A stretch of DNA of 64,000 bases from the NCBI GenBank assembly GCA_034687125.1, contig JAQGBZ010000065.1, forward strand, positions 1 to 64,000, read 5' to 3'. The notes beneath the pieces are model-generated. The model had not been told where the DNA came from. It made no database searches and saw nothing but the letters and a program-made list of their open reading frames with translations. A program made the position numbers and the translations under genes. Each line of letters begins with the position of its first letter. The stretch's first letter is position 1. Positions 10,044 to 64,000 of this stretch are shown here, piece after piece. This DNA comes from Neelides folsomi (taxonomy: Eukaryota; Arthropoda; Collembola; Neelipleona; Neelidae).

Positions 10044-13000
10044 ATGGAAAGCTTCGTAAAATACGACCCGGATTCGGATTTCTCCATCCAAAATCTGCCC
10101 TATGGGATTTTCTCATCTGCTAACAATGTTAGAAGAATTCAATTTATTTTATATATCTCTTTTAAATCAAATTGTTTTATAAAAATAACTTTTAACAAAA
10201 CATCTTGATTTATGATTATAAATTTTTTATATTACAACTGGTACAATTTATTAAATTCCATTATATTTTTTACATTTATAGAAAATAAATATAGTAAAAT
10301 AGTGTAATTATTATAGCCCAAGCTAAGACCAGGAGTAGCAATCGGAAATGACGTTTTGGATCTCCAAGTTGTCAAAAAACTTTTCGTTGGCCCAATCATG
10401 TCCAGAAACACGGATGTTTTTGATCAGGCAAGAATTATTTTTTATGTTCTTTTTTGTGACCTACATACATCATAACATGTAATTGTCTTCATATTCATTT
10501 TTTATTGAGGTTAAACTGCTATTAATTCTTAATTCTACAAAAATAGCCAATAAATGACCTCATATTTTACCCCAAAGCACTACACTCGAAACTGAAAGTT
10601 TGAGAATACCAAGAACAAAGACTAAAAATAAACTTTGAAAGCATTTTCATATAAAATTTATGGAGTATTTAGAACTGTCTTTATAAAATTTATTCTTATT
10701 CCTTTTTATTATTGGAAAAGAAAAATTCGGTAGTTGTTTTTATGTGACTACTTGTTAGATATATGTAAATAATTTATTATTGATTAATGAAATGTTTTTT
10801 GTTTCATTCCACATTTACAATTTGTTTCCTTAAAGAGTGTTTATTTATTTACGTTTTTCTCGTGCCTTCAGGACACGCTCAATGGTCTTATGGGTCTTGG
10901 AAAATCGGGATGGGGAGAATGTCGTGAAACTCTTCAGAGAATCCTCAGTTCCACGGAATCTGTCCTCAGGGATGATTCAGGACTTCTAAATAAGTAAGTT
11001 GGTCCACATTCAAAACGAATATGTGCGAAATATACCATATAGCATTAATGTAGATATTTATGTACTTAAATATATTAAATGTATGTAATAGTTAATATAC
11101 ATGTATTGTATTATAAATTAATTTAATTAATTTACATAATATGCGATATGTATTTATGTACCACTGTACTACATAACATCAATGAGCCTTATTTAAAATA
11201 ATAATTCTGTATATACTCATACTCTGATACATCATAATATTTTTGTTAATTTGAAATATTGTAATACTTGAATGCTATATGTAAATCAAGATCCCATTTC
11301 AACTTTATTTTGAAACATTATACGAGCGTACTTTGTATATGCACTATGTGAAAGATGAAAGTGAATGGAATGCGTGCGTGGTTGAACGAAATGGCTTTTA
11401 TCTGTCATATCAATAATCATCTGAAAAGATTGATCAAGAAGCTTATTAAAAATGCATTTGAAAGTTATATGTGGATGTTATAGGTCTTAAAAAGCAATTT
11501 CACCGATGGATTAAAAGCAATTTAATCATCCAAACGCATTAGAGCGATAAAATTGATAAAATGGCTAAAATTTATATATTTTATTTCTAGAGCTTTGGTC
11601 AAACAAAGCAGTGTGAAAATGCATATGCCAGCAAAAATAGGAGATTATACTGATTTCTACTCTTCCTTGGATCATGCCACGAATGTGGGAACAATGTTTC
11701 GCGGAAAGGATAACGCCCTCATGCCCAATTGGTAATAAAAAATAAATATTATTACATTTGGAGACAAAATTTTGAAATTGTTTATTCAATAGGAAATATC
11801 TTCCAGTTGGATACCACGGGCGTTCAAGTAGCATTATTGTTTCTGGAACGAATATTGTAAGACCCACAGGGCAAACTTGCCCAGTTGAAGGAAATCCTCC
11901 GGTCTTTGGTCCTTCCAAACTTGTGGACTTTGAATTGGAAATGGCTTATTTCATAGGGAGTGGAAACAAGCTCGGGGAGCCAATTCGGATTGACAAAGCA
12001 GAAGACCACATTTTTGGTTTGGTTCTTATGAACGATTGGAGTGCACGAGACATTCAAAAATGGGAGTATGTCCCACTTGGGCCATTCCTTGCTAAAAATT
12101 TCGCGACTACGATTTCACCATGGATTGTCACACTTCCAGCACTCGAACCGTTCAAAACAAAGAACTATGAACAAGATCCGAAACCGTTTCCCTATCTTTG
12201 CCACGAGGATCCGTTCACTTTTGACATTCCACTCACAGTCTCCATTAAACGTAAGACCCTTGTGGATATTTCTATCATTTTACCATTTTTCATCCTGGGA
12301 AGAAATATTTGACCTTTAACACTTTCGAGTAATGCAATAAACCAACAGTGTTATAAATACACCGAGAAATTGTGATTGGCTTCTATGCAGTCGTGTGATT
12401 TTCTGATGAGGTCATTCGATTCCCAAGAAGAAATTATAGCTAAATAGATTGTTTAGGAATGAGAAAATTCTCCTCTCGCAAGGGTGAACTGTTAATAAAT
12501 ATGCGAATTTTCATCCTAAAATCGAGTTTCAAAATTCCCAATTGGATGGCAAATTGGATTTTTATATCAATCTTTTCCTCTGAGTATTTAGACAATTTAA
12601 TTCTAGACATAATATATCGATTCTATCTTCATTTACGTAGAGTTGGTGCTCATTAAGCTAAAGAAATGAATATTTTAATATAAACGATTCTTACAAACAA
12701 GTGGCTGTAAATTCATTGATCAGTGACGCGTGTGATTGTAGAGTACGTGTTGTAAAATACATGTTAATATATTGAAAATTTCTGAATCGCCCTCCTTAGT
12801 AAAAACATAAATCGAAATTTTAAGTTGATTTAACTTTTATCACGCCCACCACCTACTCTTGTTTTATGCAAAGCCATGTAAATGAAAACAAAGTCTCTTT
12901 CGCGTCTCCGTTTCGAGTTTATCCCTTTTCTCAAATGCGAACGTTCAAGAAAAACAACATTTTATGCAATGCAAATACAAGGGATTTGCTTTTTATGACC

Positions 13001-16000
13001 CAAAGCGGTCATATTTTACGTATTTATTTATCCTTTTATTGATGTCCATAAAATATGAATATGATATTTAGTTTTATGTATTTATGCAACATTTATGTAT
13101 AAAATATATAAATATGTATACATATCTATATATGCAATGTAAATAATATTATTTATGTATATTATGTATCCACTGATAGATGCTACTTATGATTTTTATT
13201 AAAAATGAAAAAATATATTATGTCATAATATACAAGGTGAAATTTATGTAACATATTTGATCCTAAAAATGAATTTCCAGTAACGTTACAGTGTGCATAG
13301 TTCAAATGAAACATTTTGTGTAATATCAGTATATTACGATATTAAAATTCTAACATATTCTCCAGTGTAAGTTACGCACGAACTTTGGCCGGTAACGGGG
13401 CAAGAAATATAATGTTATAATTGACCATTGTTTCATAATGCCCAATAGAAAAATAACAATAAACATTTGTTATTTTTGAGCGGGAATTAGAATGCTTAAA
13501 GGATACTTTAAAAAGTAAGTTCAAATCTTCAAGTATTCTAAATCCCGCTCAAAAATAACAAACGTTTATTGTTCTTTTTCTATTGGGCATTATGAAACAA
13601 AGGTCGATTATAACATTATATTTCTTGCCCCGTTACCGGCCAAAGTTCATACGCAACTTACACTGGAGATTAAATATAAGCAAATTATAATTACTGACAG
13701 TAGAAAAAACATCAATATTATATAATAGAGAATTACGAATATTCAGCTTTACCTTTGATTACAAAATATGCGCAAACACATGGAACTTTAAATCTAACAA
13801 GACGATATCTATCATATCCCATTTATATCTCTCGGTGGACCAATTTTTAAAATTTGTTTGAATATTCATTTTAAATTAATTTATTACTTTTCTAACGATT
13901 ATTAATTAAATTATTTCTTTAATATTTTGAATAAGTCTTTATTCGCAATTGCCCACTGCCCTTACGATAAAGATCCGGGGGTTTTGGTTTCGATCAAGAC
14001 CGGAACGTGCAAACGGAATGGTGGCTTCGCTTTTTTAAACTCCGTTCCGTTCCGATTCCGGAGGGCTTTCATTTTTCCAAATTCCGTTCCATTCCGATTC
14101 CGGTGGGCCTTCACTTTTCCTTTTTTCGTTCCGGTTCCGTTCCGGTCTCAATGGAATTTCGGAATTGAAAGTCCCTATCCTATAACATGTAAGTTCCGGT
14201 TCCGTTCCGATTCTGATTGAAAGTTCCGTTCCGTTCCAATTCCGGTGAGCCTTCACTTTTCCAAATTCCGTTCGGGTAGTACCGATTCCGTTTCGGCGCC
14301 CACGTCTGACTATCTGTTAATTGTAATTTTGCTTTAATGTTTTATCATCCTTGAATTTTATAATAATTTAACAATAAAAATAAAGGGATTAATCAAATGT
14401 GTAGTAATTACCATTTTGTAATTCTTGAGTTTTACAATTTCTTGATAACAAAGTTCACAATTTGATTGGCCCAAATGAACTTCTTTGTTGTGAAGACTTG
14501 CGTAGTATCTTGCATAAATTGAAGGGAAGATTTTACGTTTATACTTTATATTTGAACTTATTCATCTTCCACAAAAGCTTAAAGTGCAATTAACATACAT
14601 TTTAACACTTTAAACTCTGATCGGAATGGAATTTGTAAAAGTATTTTAATTCACAAATTGTTTGAACTTTTCTTTCTAAGTTGTCAATAGAATAAACAAT
14701 AGAGGATAAGTAAGGAAAAAGAAGACTAGGTATATAGAAATTGCACCAAATGCACTTAATTTTCTGCAATCCAGTTCGATCGTTCCACTTCTTTTTCCAG
14801 AAAAGTGTTTATTTAAATGTGATTATAAAATTGTTTTTAATTTTCTAGCAAGTTCTGGTGGAGAAACAACTGTTTGTCAATCAAATTTTAAGCATATGTA
14901 CTGGACGATGAAGCAACAGCTTGCTCACCACACCATCACTGGATGCAATACCAACCCAGGGGATCTTTTGGCATCAGGAACAATTTCAGGCCCTGTAAAC
15001 ATCATTCGCTAATACATTATCATATTACTTCCATTCCATTCCCATCATAAACAACTCCTCGTTTCCTCATTATTTTCCCCTCCTTTAAATCTCACTTTAA
15101 ACCGAGTTGATTACCTTCCTCCATTTCTCAACCAGTTATTTATTTTAACTCTGGGAATAACAGAGAGATTGGAGATTAACTGAACAAAGCCCGACGGTGG
15201 ATAAACTTTATATTATTATTTCATTTCAGACACCGGACTCGTTCGGATCGATGTTGGAGCTCAGCTGGCGAGGATCCAAGCCAGTTCAAATGGCCGATGG
15301 ATCTAAAAGAACTTTCATCGAGGACGGAGATCAAGTTATCATGAAAGGTACATGTCTTTTTGAGGCTCTTTTTTCCTGTTTTCCCTGCAATTTCCCGGTG
15401 TAGTTATATGGGCAATATGAAGGTTTTTTGGGGGAGAAAGACCCATAATGTCTTTTGATGGGTTTCCTTCACTCCAACACGACCTTCTTCCAGAAGATCA
15501 CACGAGAATCCCTTTGCTGAATCATCAAGCCCACGCAGATGTCGAGAGGAATAATGAAAACATTTCTTCTGCTCCAACACCAAAATCCAAATCTTCGACT
15601 ACTAAAATATGGAAGAATTGAAGATGCACAGAATATAAATTAGACCATTTTCATTCATGAGCTCATTCGCATAGCTATTAAACTTAAATACGTTTACTCG
15701 ATACGCTGCGTTGTAAAAATGAATGTATATTTCGATTCATTCATTATTTCCCAACCTGCACGATTCACTTAAAATATTTTAAGAAATGGAATCAAGGTTA
15801 AATAATTCAACTTTAGTAAACTCAATCAAAGTCTTATAAAGGGAGAAAGTTTGCTTTTAATTTTCTACATGCAAATGCAGTGATACATTAGTAATTAAAT
15901 AGTCATCCATGCTTGGACTAAATAACTAAAATATGAAACTAATTGAGTAATAATACATTTTAGTTGCTGTCATATCCAGCCCAAATTCAAATTGCGCTTT

Positions 16001-37418: not shown

Positions 37419-40400
37419 TCAGTCCTTTTCATCCGCCTGCCATTTGAACTTGGAGTCCATGAGCCATTGCTGACCCTCTGAGTTGTCACATTTGGCGAGA
37501 ACAGGAGTCGTGACGTCGGTCGTAGAAGGTTTTGATAGACATTTGCCACTCGCGATATGTTTCAAAGTCTTGTCGTTTGAGTTGAAATGCCATGCTTGGT
37601 TGCCGCCAAGTCCGTGACACCGGACCAACTTCACCGTCGAGCTCATCACGGAAGAAGCGTCAAGGCAATTATCGTCCGACATCACTTGCTGTCGTTTGGT
37701 GTAAGCAAACACCTGTAATAAAATTAATAATTATAATTAAATGTAATTATCATCCATCAGGCTAATGGTTTCTGCAAAATTAATCAATTAAGGAGGATGT
37801 AAAGACGGAAGAATCATACTGACCTGATTTCCTCCAAGTCCGTGACAGTAGCCCATTCCCAAAGTTTCGCCACTTTTTCTGCCCATTGTATCCAAGCAGA
37901 ACTGAGACTCTTGGTTCCTTACTTCGCCTAAGTAATAGTAGTCTAATGGCATGGGCGATTCTGGATAGACGTTTTCTAAGTACCACTTGAACCCTTTGCA
38001 TTTTAAGTCTTTTCTCAACTTTTCCCTTTCGGAAACATCTCCAATGTCCACCGTGCGAGCACCTGAGGTTAAATACAATCCAATGTTACGCATCACAGTT
38101 CACATTAAAATTTACAGCAACTCAGGTTCATGTTCAAAATGAAAAGTGTATTTACACATGAAATCAAATTAAATTAAATTCTACGAGTATTTTTTACATT
38201 TGCAAATTATTTAACTATGTTAGGTATAATTTAACATCTTTCTAAATTAGTTGTACTAGTAAGTACGAGGCTATGCAATGGAAGCATTCAATAATAAGCA
38301 AAGAGCTATTCAAAATTAAGCTGTGTACAATTCCCAATGCAGTGATAATAGGTAGCAATAACTATAATAGGCAGTAGAAAGAATATAAAAAGTGTAGGAA
38401 AGCAAAATAATTGACTTTTACAATTGTATGGACATTGTGAAGGTTGTGAATATCGTGGAGAAAAAAAACTGATTGCATCCGAAGTAATTGATATAATGGA
38501 GGAGTGCTATAAAGTGGAAGTCTGTTAAAACATAATGAATGTGTCGACGGCAAATAATAATTCATTCATGTGGATGTGCATGAAGAGAGGAATTGTATCC
38601 TGAGACCTGGGAACATGGCGAAATAAAACAGACGCCATTCGTCCAACCATACGGCTGCCAACCTCCCATTGTTCTTGTCTACAATGCGAGAGGTTCCTCC
38701 AGGAAATGAGTACGGAGTAGTTTTACGGAACACGTGACCAACCCTTGAACAGGGAGCGATGGCCAACTTTCCTCCACACATCCAAACCTAATATATTCCA
38801 TTTTATTCCTCCATACTTCAAAATTCATATTGTATGTATTGATAAAACGGAAAAGTATATAAAATAAATACAAAACAAATAATGAATAATAACAAAAAAC
38901 AAAATAATGAAAGATTACAAAAAACAAAGGTTAACGGGAAGGAATTAACTTTTGGTTGGAAATTAGGAAAGAAGGTTAATGAGTTAAAATAAGGCGATGG
39001 CGAAGATTTAGATAGAAGGATTATTTTATGCTTGGGCATACCATAGATCGTACAATGTTAAATATTCGATCTGTTAAATGAAGTATTAGTTTGCTTATAA
39101 ATATTTTAGCATCGCGATTATTAAAGTATAATCATATGTTAATATTAAAAGCTCATAGCATTATGGAGCCAGGTTGATGTGTATTAATCCAAATTGAGAA
39201 AGGTTAGATAATTCTCATTGTTAATTTTAGTTCAAAATGTTAATATTGGTATTGAGTAATGTTAATTGTACATTTAAAATGAAAAAATAATAACCTGGGC
39301 TCATTTCAAAATAAAATTGTTTCCATTCGTCCAACCAAACAGTGGCGACCCGCGCCGTGTTATGAAGAATAATTTTTGAGACCCCCCCAGGGAAGGTGTA
39401 AGGTGACTTGTCTCTAAAGACATGCCCAACGTGAGAGCAAGTAGCTATCTTCAATGTTCCACCGCACTGCCACACCTGTCCTCCCATACGCTCATTAAAC
39501 CCTTCTTTCCAATTTGTAATCATTCACCAAAATCAATTTAAAATAAACAAGGTATAGGGTAGAAACAAATAAATTATAATTAAAGAAATTACGAAATAAT
39601 GAAAATAATTATCATAAGATACTTTTGATTAAATTGATTTTAGTTGCTTATTGAATAAATAAAGAACAAACTAGAAAAGAACAAACCCGGAACGACATTT
39701 CAAGATTTTCTCCACCCCAAATGTCCATTCCAATATCATAAGATCCGATTTCATAGAAGTAGTCTCTATCGATCGAAAATAAACCTCCAGCCATCGTTGG
39801 AGTGAGCAAAGGCAAAGTTCGATCTCCACCTCTTCTTTCCATTTCTCTCTGAGGGACGCGATACCTAAAGTCAAATCAATTCTTAAGAACTTGATGTCCG
39901 ATTAAACCCGATTTTACGATTTCCGAAATCCGAAATCAAAATTACCATCTAAAGTTCAATTTCCAATTGAATCCGCCCCAGGTCATATCCGAAGCAGTTA
40001 CATATTCAAAGTTGTTGTCAGAAATCACATCAATGATAGGGCAAATGACGGTTTTGCGATCTTGTGCTATTTCGCTGAGCAAAGGCTCCAACCAACCCTC
40101 AGTGCACTCACAATGGGCATCAAGGAAAGTCAAAATGGAACCCTAGTTAAAAAAAAAGATTAAATTCTGATGCAAAAATTGAAAAATGTGATTCTTAAAT
40201 TGTTTATATAATATTTCGATGGACTGATTGATTTTGAGAATTTACACACCTTTGCATTTTTGGCACCTAAAAGTCTGGCTCGAATGAGGCCTGATCGTTT
40301 CCCTGTCCTAAAGAGGCGAACGCTCGTCGGGAGTTTTGCAATGTAATCTTCTAATTTCTTCTGAAGGAAATCTCTTTCAGACGCGTCGTCGACGAGAATG

Positions 40401-41234
40401 ATTTCCTTGATGAGACTTTTCGGAGACCGATTGATGACGGAATGTACAGTTCTAAGCAACGTTGACCAAGCCTCATTGTGAAATACTATAATAATTGAAG
40501 TATCTGGAAGGTACTTAGGATACTCTTTCTTTCCACACCTATGTTAAGTGAATCAAGAAATCTTTGATTAAATAATCATTTGATTAAAATATATAAGTTA
40601 TATTATAAAATAATAAACAGCAATCTTAATTAAAAGGTTTATTTGAACATCTTTAAATGAATTAAAATAATAAGTACGCAGTGATTTACCCTGAAAGTCT
40701 AACATCTGGAAGAGATCTGTTGAGTGAGAGTGCATCAGAAGCAAGTACATTGAATTGATTGATCTTGAATTTTTCAGACACGAGCCGTTCCACTGAAGGT
40801 GGCAATTTCACGGATCTTCCCATCTCCCCTGGAGAACCCTTCTGTTCTTGAACTACAGGAGCTGGATCCCATAAGTGTAATTTGCTTTTCGGGTAAACTA
40901 CAAATTGAGCCTGAAATATTCATGATATTAGCACTACGTGGTGGCTGAATGTAAAATGAATAATCATTTGATCATAATACGAGGTGTGTGATTTTACCTT
41001 CACAACATCTTCATCCTCATCTTCAACAACGTTACTGTGATGGAACTTGAAAGGCTTGTCGTTGTCGCTCCCTTTGTGCACTAGAGAGTCTGCTGAGGGT
41101 CCCCTGGAGTCACCGGCATTCGTACAACCACTTCCGCCACAATCAGTGTAATAAATGAGGAGAACCACATCGATGAGGAACCAAATTAGCGAAGTTACAA
41201 GAATAATTTTGCATGTTTGCATTCGAAATCGCAT
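37419..41234 (-). CDS. pgant5: polypeptide N-acetylgalactosaminyltransferase, Pgant5 type, 8 coding exons plus one alternative exon
   Basis: This Golgi type II membrane enzyme starts mucin-type O-glycosylation by moving GalNAc from UDP-GalNAc to Ser/Thr. Coding exons in transcript order: 41234-40998, 40910-40690, 40538-40250, 40142-39946, 39864-39687, then 39475-39295 (6a) or 38787-38607 (6b), 38062-37824 and 37712-37419. Either choice gives 611 residues. Residues about 8-27 form the membrane anchor. The GT1 part has LDAHCE with the DxH metal motif at 257-259. The Gal/GalNAc-T motif DIWGGENLE is at 362-370. Exon 6 carries the third metal ligand (GHVFR, H392) and the flexible loop with PY.FPGG. 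A ricin-type lectin domain follows from about 478 with CLD and QxW-like repeats. Sequence blocks match Drosophila Pgant5 very closely, including the N-terminal stretch and the C-terminal [13 protein letters not shown]. The orthology call is from memory and not from a tree. Confidence 0.95.
38607..38787 (-). other. pgant5 alternative exon 6b (duplicated, probably mutually exclusive)
   Basis: This exon has exactly the same length (181 bp) and phases as exon 6a. It begins [20 protein letters not shown], and I count 38 identities in 60 aligned residues. It keeps the metal histidine, the following VFR and the PY.FPGG loop core, but changes loop and surface residues ([12 protein letters not shown]). 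It is open throughout with a TATTAG|G acceptor and CAG|GTCTCA donor, so it looks functional. Including both copies in one transcript would shift the frame by one base (181 is not a multiple of three), which favours mutually exclusive use. Confidence 0.85.
39295..39475 (-). other. pgant5 alternative exon 6a
   Basis: A 181-bp exon that enters in phase 0 and leaves in phase 1. It begins [20 protein letters not shown] and covers residues 375-434. It supplies the metal-binding histidine and the flexible catalytic loop, here [12 protein letters not shown]. Of the two copies it is closer to the usual Pgant5 sequence. Its acceptor and donor are both canonical (CAG|G, CAG|GTTATT). Confidence 0.9.
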
Positions 41235-46691: not shown

Positions 46692-48115
46692 ATGTCAATT
46701 TACACGAAAAAAACATGGATAACGAGCACTGCGGCTCTTAAAGCTTTAAATAGCAAAATCAATTCCGCAATGGCTACAAATGTACCATCAAACAACAATG
46801 ATCAACCGGTTCCGAAGACTAAAAAGTTTTGGGCCAGAAGTGAAGATTCGATGGTTAAACGGATGCAAGCTCATGACCTTCGAACAAAGGCGAGAAGACT
46901 CATGAAAAAGGCTGAAAACAGAATGAAAACACTTGCCATCAATCTCTCAGAACATACGCATTTCAATTTCACTGAGGTTTTTTCATAAAAATAGAAGGAT
47001 GGAAAATGTATCTTCAAAAATAACTTGTGTTTAATAATATTATATTATTTAACGCTTTTTTTTAGTGTTTGGAGATTTTACGAATGTACAAAAATTTAAG
47101 CAAGCGATGGCCATTCAAGAAGATCCGATTCAGGGAAATGATGGTAGTCCTTTTTGAAATTAGGGACATCAGGATTATCAATAGGCTTTTCTACATGTTT
47201 GATCAAAACGAAAATCAAATTGTAAGACGAAAATTACCCAATGTCCTTGTGATCTATTTTTTCTAGTAAAATATTCTATAAATATTCAATAATTAAATAA
47301 AATATGCGGAAATTGTTTTAAAGGTTGACGAAACGGAATGGGTTACTTGCCTGTCAATCATGTTGAGAGGAAACTTGGAAGAGCAAGTCGTGTTCGTCTA
47401 CGGGGTTTACGACATAAATGGAGATTGTGGGATTGGAAGGGATGAACTCACCCTCTGTCTAGAAGATTGCTTCCGCGTGACGCGAGATTTCACCGACAAC
47501 GACGTGGAGGAAGCTATAAGGGAAATTGTAGACATTGCCATGAAAAAGCTTGACGTGAACGACGACGGGAAAATTTCAATGGAGGATTTCGCTGAGGCTG
47601 TGAAAAAAGATCCGTTCCTCATTAACTCCGTGGGGAAATGTCTTCCGGATCCGATTATGATGCAAGCATTCATCATGGCTTTCACAGAAAGATTACATTA
47701 CACAACTTCATACGAACCCGTGTTGGAAACAGCTTCCAGGAGAGATGCAAGACAAGATAGCAAATCCACCACATATGCTAAAGTTGAAGTGGAAAAGAAA
47801 AAACAAAAGAAAATTACTCAACTTCGGGGACGTCATCTCAGCGTTTTCGGACTCACATCTCAGGAACCTTCAGAGTTCTTGGACAAACATAAGGAAGAGG
47901 GAACTCAAACTCAAGTTGTAATTCCAAGAGAATTAAGACGCTCCCAGGATAGTGACAATCAAAGACCATCCAAGCAAGTACACATTCTTGGACCTGAAGA
48001 CTCATTTCTCATTGTCGACAATTTACATTTCGAAAATTCAGTATCCAAAAAGTTGAACGAGTCTCTTGTACAAAATGGAGTTGGTATTATGATGAAAAGA
48101 TCAGTAAATTTTTAA
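46692..48115 (+). CDS. calaxin/EFCAB1-like EF-hand calcium-binding protein, 3 coding exons
   Basis: Coding exons 46692-46976, 47066-47221 and 47324-48115 all meet in phase 0 and give 410 residues. The centre (about 70-260) follows calaxin, the calcium sensor of outer-arm dynein. It has a helix with the CLEIL block, then three EF-hand loops at residues 141-152 (DQNENQIVDETE, split by intron 2), 177-188 (DINGDCGIGRDE) and 224-235 (DVNDDGKISMED). After these comes a block ending GKCLPD, like the calaxin GPCLPD. MLRGNLEEQV matches the LRGSLEEKM linker. The second and third loops look fully calcium-competent; the first is less typical. Vertebrate calaxin has about 211 residues. Here there are about 70 extra basic residues in front and about 150 behind, rich in K, E, Q and S with no known domain. 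A possible poly(A) signal AATAAA is near 48359. Confidence 0.82.
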
Positions 48116-61676: not shown

Positions 61677-64000
61677 ATAACAGAGCTTTGAAGCCAAATT
61701 CTGAACAAAATGGCTCTCTCCCTCCGAATTCACATTGTTGAAAAAAGTGTGACGAAGACACTTCAGTTTGACCCGTCCACGAACATATTCGACGCCTGTA
61801 AAATTATCCGAGAGAAATGTGCAGAATTGCCAGAATTGGGACAACGTAAGTTTTCATCATCTAATTTTTACACTTTAAATGATTATCTAATTAATTTGTG
61901 ATATTATAGCCAAAGACTACGGTCTATTTCTACCTGGAGAAGCTTATGGAACAGGAGCTTGGCTGGAGCCAGGGAAAACTCTCGACTATTACCTTTTAAG
62001 AAACGGAGACACGATCGAATACAGGCGAAAAATGAGAACTCTCAAAGTCCGCACTCTAGACGAAACGAACAAAAAAATGCTGGTTGATGACAGTCAGAAT
62101 GTTGCCAACTTGATGGTCGTCATTTGCACAAAAATGGGTTAGTTAAACTTAAAAATAAAGATTTTCATGTTTTCATTATTCTTGATGCATCTTGCAAAAC
62201 ATTTATAAAAGGTACATAGCATAATACCATTTTTACAATATATTATTTTATAACAATGTTTTTGAATATTTTTTTTGTTTTTTCTTAAGGTATTACGAAT
62301 CATGACGAATACAGCCTGGTTAGGGATTTACCTGAAGAAGCCGACCTACAAGGACGGCCAGAGAATTATGGAACCCTTACACTCAGAAGGAAAAGAGAAG
62401 AAAAGGAAAGAGACGCGAAAATGGAACAACTAAGGAAAAAATTGAAAACGGATGACGAGAGTGAGTAAAGATTCTTTATCGAAAAAAGTCATGAAAAAAT
62501 ATTAATTTTGTTTATTGATTTTTCTAGTCAATTGGGTTGATCACACAAAGACGTTGAGGGAACAAGGGATTGAAGAAGATGAAGTTCTTTTGCTTCGTCG
62601 GAAGTTTTTCTTCTCAGATCAGAATATCGACTCTCATGACCCAGTTCAATTGAACCTTTTGTATGTTCAAGCGAGGGACGCCATTCTTGACGGCACTCAT
62701 CCGATTACTCAGGAGAAAGCTTGTGAATTTGCCGGTATACAATGCCAAATTCAATTTGGAGATCACAATCCTTCCAAACATCGTCCGGGATATTTGGAGT
62801 AAGTGAAAATATTATTTACAAGTTCTACCTTTCTATTATACAATTCTTAAAAAAATTCTATTATTTAGCATGTTTATTATATATATTTTTTCTATTATTC
62901 AAGCAATTTCCATAATATTTATCAAATATAACTTTTTGTAGCTTGAAAGATTTTCTTCCTGCTGAATACGCGAAGAATAAAGGAGTAGAGAAAAAAGTGT
63001 TTTTGGAGCACAGGCGGCACATGGGTGAAGGAGATTTGGATGCTAAAGCCTTATATACAAAATCTGCAAGATCACTCGACACTTACGGCGTCACTTTCTT
63101 TCTCGTCAAAGAGAAGATGCAAGGAAAAAACAAACTTGTACCGCGGCTGTTGGGAGTTACAAAGGACTCAGTCCTGAGGCTCGATGAAAGAACTAAGGAA
63201 ATCCTCAAGACATGGCCATTGACAACTGTACGAAGATGGGCAGCCTCCCCCAACACCTTCACTCTCGACTTTGGAGATTACTCCGACAATTATTACAGTG
63301 TTCAGACGGCTGAAGGGGAACAAATTGCACAACTCATAGCTGGATACATTGACATTATTCTTAAAAAGGTAATATATTAAAATAATTATAATATTATATT
63401 TAATACACCTGTATTTAAATTAAATATATTTAATATATTTCATTGTCCAATTTTAGAAACAAGCAAAGGATCATTTGGGTATTGAAGGAGACGAAGGATC
63501 AACTTTGGTTGAAGATATGGTGAGTCCATTCAGGGCTCAAATTGTTCAACGACAATTGCCGGCAAAGCCGACACCACTCGTTACTGACTCTGTAGCGAAG
63601 CCGGCAGTGATGCACGCTGGGCCGAAAGGTAAATACAAGAGATGGGAATGAATTAGTATTAATTATATGAGGGTTTAGGTATTAATACAATCCATACGGG
63701 TCATATCCAAGGGGCAAAATATAGTACGATCCGAGGGCAACTCGACGTTGCTCATAGTCCACAACCTTCGGTAAGATATTTACAAGCCTTAGCCATACCT
63801 CAGCGTTTTCTCAACTCTAACTTTCGGCATTGCCATTTTAGCCTTAACAATTATTGGAATATAAAAATAAGCGGGTTTTTGATCTGACAAGGAAGTTAAT
63901 TCCTTGCTTAGCTAATTTTGCATAAAAGCTAAAATTGATTTTAACTTTTGAATCTAATTCATTAATTAACATTGAGTCTAATGTATCATGGTATGGCTAA
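61677..64000 (+). CDS. rhea: talin, 5' part (FERM head and linker), partial at window end
   Basis: Talin links integrin tails to actin and activates integrins. The ATG is at 61710 after a short untranslated stretch. Exons read: 61677-61845, 61910-62137, 62290-62460, 62528-62798, 62942-63368, 63457-63628 and 63679-63770. The window ends in the next intron. The coding part is 499 codons. F0 starts MALSLRIHIVEKSVTKTLQF, F1 includes the conserved LRTLDETNKKMLVDDS-type block, F2 has the INWVDHTKTLREQG and LLRRKFFFSDQN blocks, and F3 carries LLGVTKDSV, RRWAASP and GYIDIILKKKQAKDH. W368 matches the tryptophan known from mouse talin (W359) in integrin-tail binding. After about residue 415 come the GIEGDEGSTLVEDMVSPF segment and a poorly conserved linker to the rod. 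The match to talin is unmistakable; the symbol follows the Drosophila name. Confidence 0.96.

Follow-up and report, generated by a model that had tools for sequence, protein, structure and literature searches.

Splicing that substitutes one tandem-duplicated exon for another is already on record for polypeptide N-acetylgalactosaminyltransferases (GalNAc-transferases), the enzymes that add the initial sugar to mucin-type proteins and decide which proteins get mucin-type sugars. Drosophila Pgant5, Caenorhabditis elegans gly-5 and human GALNT13 are listed with such substitutions (PMC9741552; this and the other papers are cited for those parts of their text that were available), and the parts concerned mention neither the exon involved nor a swap of the catalytic loop. 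In Drosophila pgant9, exons 8A and 8B bring about a tissue-specific swap in the lectin domain that changes substrate preference; the same study, having shown a specificity switch by splicing through this domain, left open whether splicing gives other family members alternative specificities (PMC6115407). Here we describe a gene of this family from the collembolan Neelides folsomi, in a window of 64,000 nucleotides (positions 1 to 64,000 of the forward strand of contig JAQGBZ010000065.1, assembly GCA_034687125.1). The gene lies on the minus strand at 41234-37419 and has two versions of its sixth coding exon, 6a and 6b. It is very probably a GALNT1/13-Pgant5-type gene with a mutually exclusive exon pair that swaps the flexible loop of the enzyme, and it would probably yield two isoforms differing in acceptor choice or loop dynamics.

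The gene and its two versions of exon 6

Joined with either 6a or 6b, the exons encode a complete polypeptide GalNAc-transferase of 611 residues without an internal stop. The single chain contains both a glycosyltransferase 2 domain (PF00535), which is the glycosyltransferase-A (GT-A) catalytic unit, and a ricin-B lectin domain (PF00652), each above cut-off; Pfam scans with 6a alone and with 6b alone matched no family. The N-terminal segment aligns with the N-terminus of GALNT1 at 20 bits, with a membrane or signal anchor judged by eye, and an Asp-x-His motif (DAH) was likewise recognized by eye in the part of the model encoded by exon 4. The closest solved structure is that of GALNT1 (chain 8v9q_A, E value 1e-229), which we take to be the human enzyme, the listing being without organism. 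Against GalNAc-transferases of known structure the bit scores are 767 for GALNT1, 529 for PGANT9 and about 462 for GALNT2. The counterpart of GALNT2 is a separate gene on contig C50, with 88% identity to GALNT2 across this exon, which places the window gene with GALNT1/13 within the family. The Pfam domains and the best structural match support an earlier note on this DNA, made from the sequence alone, in calling the product a Pgant5/GALNT1-type enzyme. The specific name Pgant5 is presumptive and follows the pairing of GALNT13 and Pgant5 in PMC9741552. As a separate observation, by eye, the GALNT2-like gene on C50 (around L009 position 3321) has no intron at FR/VW, the point at which exon 6 of the window gene begins (a slash marks a border throughout).

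Exons 6a and 6b are each 181 bp long, with equal phases (start 0, end +1), and are identical at 38 of 60 residues and 112 of 181 bases. The upstream partner, exon 5, ends at 39687 with CGG/GTTTGT, and exon 7 starts at 38062. The borders of 6a are GGACAG/GTGTGG (acceptor) and CAG/GTTATT (donor), those of 6b ATTAG/GTTTGG and CAG/GTCTCA. The coordinates, lengths, phases and residue identity given in the earlier note are exact, and every junction that it named exists. Its description of the splice sites as intact needs a qualification: the GT/AG dinucleotides are indeed preserved at the borders of both copies, but the pyrimidine content of their acceptors (positions -20 to -4), at 0.24 for 6a and 0.29 for 6b, is the lowest among the gene's eight acceptors, the others ranging from 0.47 to 0.76. 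A model with both copies, or with neither, shifts out of frame when translated and terminates early. Since 181 is not divisible by three, as the note had argued in favor of exclusive choice, a useful transcript holds exactly one copy. In a side observation, the end of intron 5 (39523-39476, minus strand) is open in frame with 6a, upstream of VWQCGG, so that a shifted acceptor could add residues with the frame unbroken.

The pattern of divergence between the copies is that of coding sequence. At codon positions 1, 2 and 3, respectively 42, 46 and 23 of 60 bases are identical. Non-synonymous divergence (dN) is 0.25-0.43 across estimators, and synonymous sites are saturated, the corresponding dS being undefined by NG86, 1.58 by LWL85 and 26 by maximum likelihood, with no estimate from YN00. 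Among 20,000 copies simulated under neutrality, with base changes matched to the 69 observed, 4.5% were free of stops and none retained 38 identical residues, the maximum being 29. The bias by codon position, the dN/dS values and the simulation therefore indicate long-standing protein-level selection on both 6a and 6b. Taken with the sequence and the reading frame, this selection suggests that the pair are tandem-duplicated, mutually exclusive exons, each used in the RNA to the exclusion of the other.

We searched the genome (75.1 Mb in 840 contigs) for further copies. Among the nine best candidates scored, eight places match 6b, two of them being the window pair and six lying on other contigs. 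With 6a, 6b, GALNT1 and GALNT2 as queries, these six other GalNAc-transferase-like places have one exon copy each, that on contig C478 being partial, and four further stretches around lectin matches gave no match to the same exon queries. Among the GalNAc-transferase-like places found in the genome, two exon copies are seen only in the window gene.

What the swap would change in the enzyme

Exon 6 corresponds to residues 342-401 of GalNAc-T2 in the numbering of the full-length chain, or to 342-399 in a second alignment. In GalNAc-T2 the flexible loop runs from Arg362 to Ser373, His359 is a metal ligand and Tyr396 is widely conserved; peptide contacts include Phe361, His365, Phe377 and Ser373, and hydrogen bonds to glycopeptide are made by Arg362, Lys363 and, in some complexes, Tyr367 (PMC4432651). 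The loop also helps to recognize peptide sequences (PMC9996832). Each version of exon 6 would thus supply the whole catalytic flexible loop (362-373) together with the metal ligand His359 ahead of it and the stretch that follows.

We compared the two versions at nine published GalNAc-T2 contact or conserved positions: 359, 361, 362, 363, 365, 367, 373, 377 and 396. Five of them (359, 361, 362, 367 and 396) do not change between 6a and 6b. The other four change, from 6a to 6b, from Asp to Lys (363), Ser to Thr (365), Val to Thr (373) and Ile to Val (377), and in GalNAc-T2 all four are in contact with either the acceptor peptide or a bound glycopeptide. The equivalents of His359, Phe361, Arg362 and Tyr367, which are metal and uridine diphosphate (UDP) residues, are identical with either exon. 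Mapping on GalNAc-T2 positions in this way upholds the earlier claim of a change in the flexible loop, with conservation of the metal and UDP residues. With no change at the metal, UDP and conserved aromatic residues, both isoforms should be active; with four peptide or glycopeptide contacts altered, acceptor choice or loop dynamics would most likely differ between them. It is plausible that one gene thereby obtains two substrate preferences, and a functional reading in which splicing switches the lid over the catalytic site appears reasonable. A swap of the catalytic loop that leaves the residues for chemistry alone and varies some of those in contact with the peptide makes the question of splicing and specificity directly testable.

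The same comparison bears on a serious, though not the favored, possibility, which concerns the specificity part only and is not additive with the other alternatives discussed below: both isoforms may be made, with the swap tuning stability, the rate of loop opening or contact with the lectin domain rather than acceptor choice. The loop is known also to govern active and inactive states (PMC4432651), and 18 of the 22 differing residues fall outside the nine listed positions, two of these (364 and 368) lying within the loop itself. Yet four of the nine listed positions do differ, one of them with a reversal of charge, in a setting where the metal and UDP residues stay constant.

Age of the pair and the choice between exons

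Over exon 6, identity to GALNT1 is 38 of 60 residues for 6a and 36 of 60 for 6b, about the same as that between 6a and 6b. A tree of nine rows of 60 residues, from which the partial exon on C478 was left out, does not resolve the order of 6a, 6b and GALNT1, the path lengths being 0.72 between 6a and 6b, 0.66 between 6a and GALNT1 and 0.68 between 6b and GALNT1. Elsewhere in the gene, identity to GALNT1 is 66% in exon 3, 76% in exon 4 and 85% in exon 5, compared with 63% in exon 6a and 54% in exon 7 (its first 67 residues only). Taken together, these values suggest that the duplication is old, or that exon 6 changed quickly afterwards, or both.

Choice between the copies is probably regulated through their weak acceptors; the low pyrimidine content would suit such regulation, on the basis of eight sites in one gene. 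Pairing within the introns that would loop out 6a may perhaps aid the choice. Folding predicts three nested helices between the end of intron 5 and the middle intron (Table 1), most of their pairs having a probability above 0.8 in three differently cut stretches. By whole-intron duplex energy, 7 of 300 shuffles reach the value observed for intron 5 with the middle intron, as against 111 of 300 for intron 5 with intron 7 and 61 of 300 for the middle intron with intron 7. By local 36-base energy the corresponding counts are 0 of 120, 17 of 60 and 0 of 30. In a band of spans from 480 to 620, chosen with the stem already known, the fold has 34 pairs, a number reached by none of 150 matched places and none of 80 shuffles.

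Several results weigh against a regulated exclusive pair of this kind. The alignment score of intron 5 with the middle intron is ordinary, being reached by 364 of 1000 shuffles and by 290 of 842 places in the window (the two other intron pairs are reached by 142 and 68 of 1000 shuffles). The 36-base energy of -25.3 lies within the range of 120 window places not matched for G+C content (mean -22.3, lowest -35.9). Among G+C-matched genomic places, 4 of 400 reach the stem, and an ensemble fold of 921 bases has 37 pairs with a span of at least 400 and a probability of at least 0.8, a number that 4 of 150 matched places and 4 of 80 shuffles attain. A candidate purine-rich element upstream of both exons, GTATGG(G)AGGA, was rejected because its flank alignment is reached in 41% of 5,000 shuffles (p 0.41). 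Lastly, a query with 6a, the only exon used in this search, found no relatives among viral and prokaryotic contigs. Against matched controls the stem stands at about the 1-5% level.

The earlier note had proposed looking for competing pairing in the flanking introns. One stem looping out 6a is predicted there, but no competing pair was found: in folds of the introns around 6a and 6b no selector pair has a common docking site, and the 6a-looping stem forms in the same fold as a second helix at the 6b acceptor, without competition. As the two predicted structures do not compete, they do not match the docker-selector pairs of PMC6071210. Downstream of the two donors, the alignment score of the flanks is reached in 43% of 2,000 shuffles, and an Rfam scan of the window returned nothing at gathering scores. 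A role for the stem in the choice of exon is a weak lead.

It is unlikely, though conceivable, that a more elaborate account applies in full, one in which the isoforms prefer acceptors of opposite charge (Asp363 against Lys363), a stem that hides the branch-point region of 6a sets the choice by tissue, and the pair is an ancient arthropod one because 6a and 6b are as far from each other as each is from GALNT1. Very unlikely, in our estimate, is that one copy, 6b (or 6a), is left over from the duplication and no longer spliced, so that the gene makes one enzyme. The pyrimidine-poor acceptor of 6b, and its donor GTCTCA, which departs from the usual consensus, would agree with decay, but the acceptor of 6a is as poor in pyrimidine, so that weakness is no mark of a dead exon, and a relic is hard to reconcile with the codon-position bias, the saturated synonymous sites, a dN near 0.3 and the failure of all 20,000 neutral copies to keep 38 of 60 residues. 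Least probable is that the exons are alternative without being exclusive, double inclusion acting as an off-switch with a frame-shifted transcript sent to decay: it does give an early stop, and the 507-base intron between the copies is long enough for splicing, but an off-switch alone leaves the protein-level selection on both copies unexplained.

Table 1. Features of the gene and of its predicted intronic pairing, in window coordinates
Feature	Positions	Strand	Basis
Coding exon 1 (start codon, signal anchor)	40998..41234	-	gene model; N-terminus alignment to GALNT1
Coding exon 2	40690..40910	-	gene model
Coding exon 3 (GT-A catalytic domain)	40250..40538	-	gene model; PF00535
Coding exon 4 (catalytic domain)	39946..40142	-	gene model; structure-match alignment
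Coding exon 5 (catalytic domain)	39687..39864	-	gene model; structure-match alignment
Intron 5 arm of predicted long stem, ending 4 nt from 6a acceptor	39480..39525	-	partition-function folds; weak against controls
Exon 6a	39295..39475	-	gene model; exon comparison
Middle-intron arm of the same predicted 6a-looping stem	38909..39005	-	partition-function folds
Exon 6b	38607..38787	-	gene model; exon comparison
Intron arm predicted to pair with 6b acceptor and first 6b bases (38789-38768)	38441..38464	-	folding; no control of its own; lead only
Coding exon 7	37824..38062	-	gene model
Coding exon 8 (lectin domain, stop codon)	37419..37712	-	gene model; PF00652

Elsewhere in the window, on the plus strand and by eye, an open frame at 11776-12312 resembles part of a fumarylacetoacetase gene, a 272-residue open frame at 47297-48115 has EF-hand-like stretches, and two open frames (62506-62802 and 62916-63380) resemble talin exons from the FERM region. 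At 13906-14316 both strands carry open frames with a repeated SVPFRFR-type peptide, also noted by eye, which suggests a short tandem repeat or debris of a mobile element. In the genome, the mitochondrial cox1 gene on contig C742 has 524 codons and is open throughout in the invertebrate code.

Comparison with described systems

We found no description of an exon swap in the catalytic loop of a GalNAc-transferase in searches of open-access papers on splicing and variants of the family; most subscription papers lie outside this scope, so the absence is weak evidence. The main texts of PMC4465641 and PMC5740500, which deal with homologous or mutually exclusive exons, contain no occurrence of galnt, and the available part of PMC5312091 holds nothing relevant. 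The earlier note knew of no description of this exon pair for Pgant5; a substitution in fly Pgant5 is in fact listed in PMC9741552, and what stands of the claim is that the available text does not mention a loop swap. In a splicing-index table, pgant5 has a value in the fly TDP-43 knockout and none that is significant in two other columns, the exon being unnamed (PMC3385985).

The predicted stem pairs the intron before the cluster with the one that precedes the second variant, and in this it resembles the upstream-docker layout of Dscam exon 6 and other exclusive exons of insects. Docker-selector systems, however, have competing pairs with a common docking site (PMC6071210), whereas in the window gene none was seen and the stem is weak against controls. 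Like pgant9, the window gene would use splicing to change a charged element close to the active site of a PGANT enzyme, the change in preference having been shown for pgant9 (PMC6115407). There the swap involves some 30 residues in the alpha subdomain of the lectin domain, whereas here it falls in the catalytic domain itself and includes the flexible loop. Closest are Pgant5, gly-5 and GALNT13, which belong to the same GALNT1/13-Pgant5 family and have tandem-duplicated exons that substitute for each other (PMC9741552), as 6a and 6b probably do. The event in fly Pgant5 may be this very exon pair. This kind of swap is already known in the gene family, and the window gene is a good new example of it.
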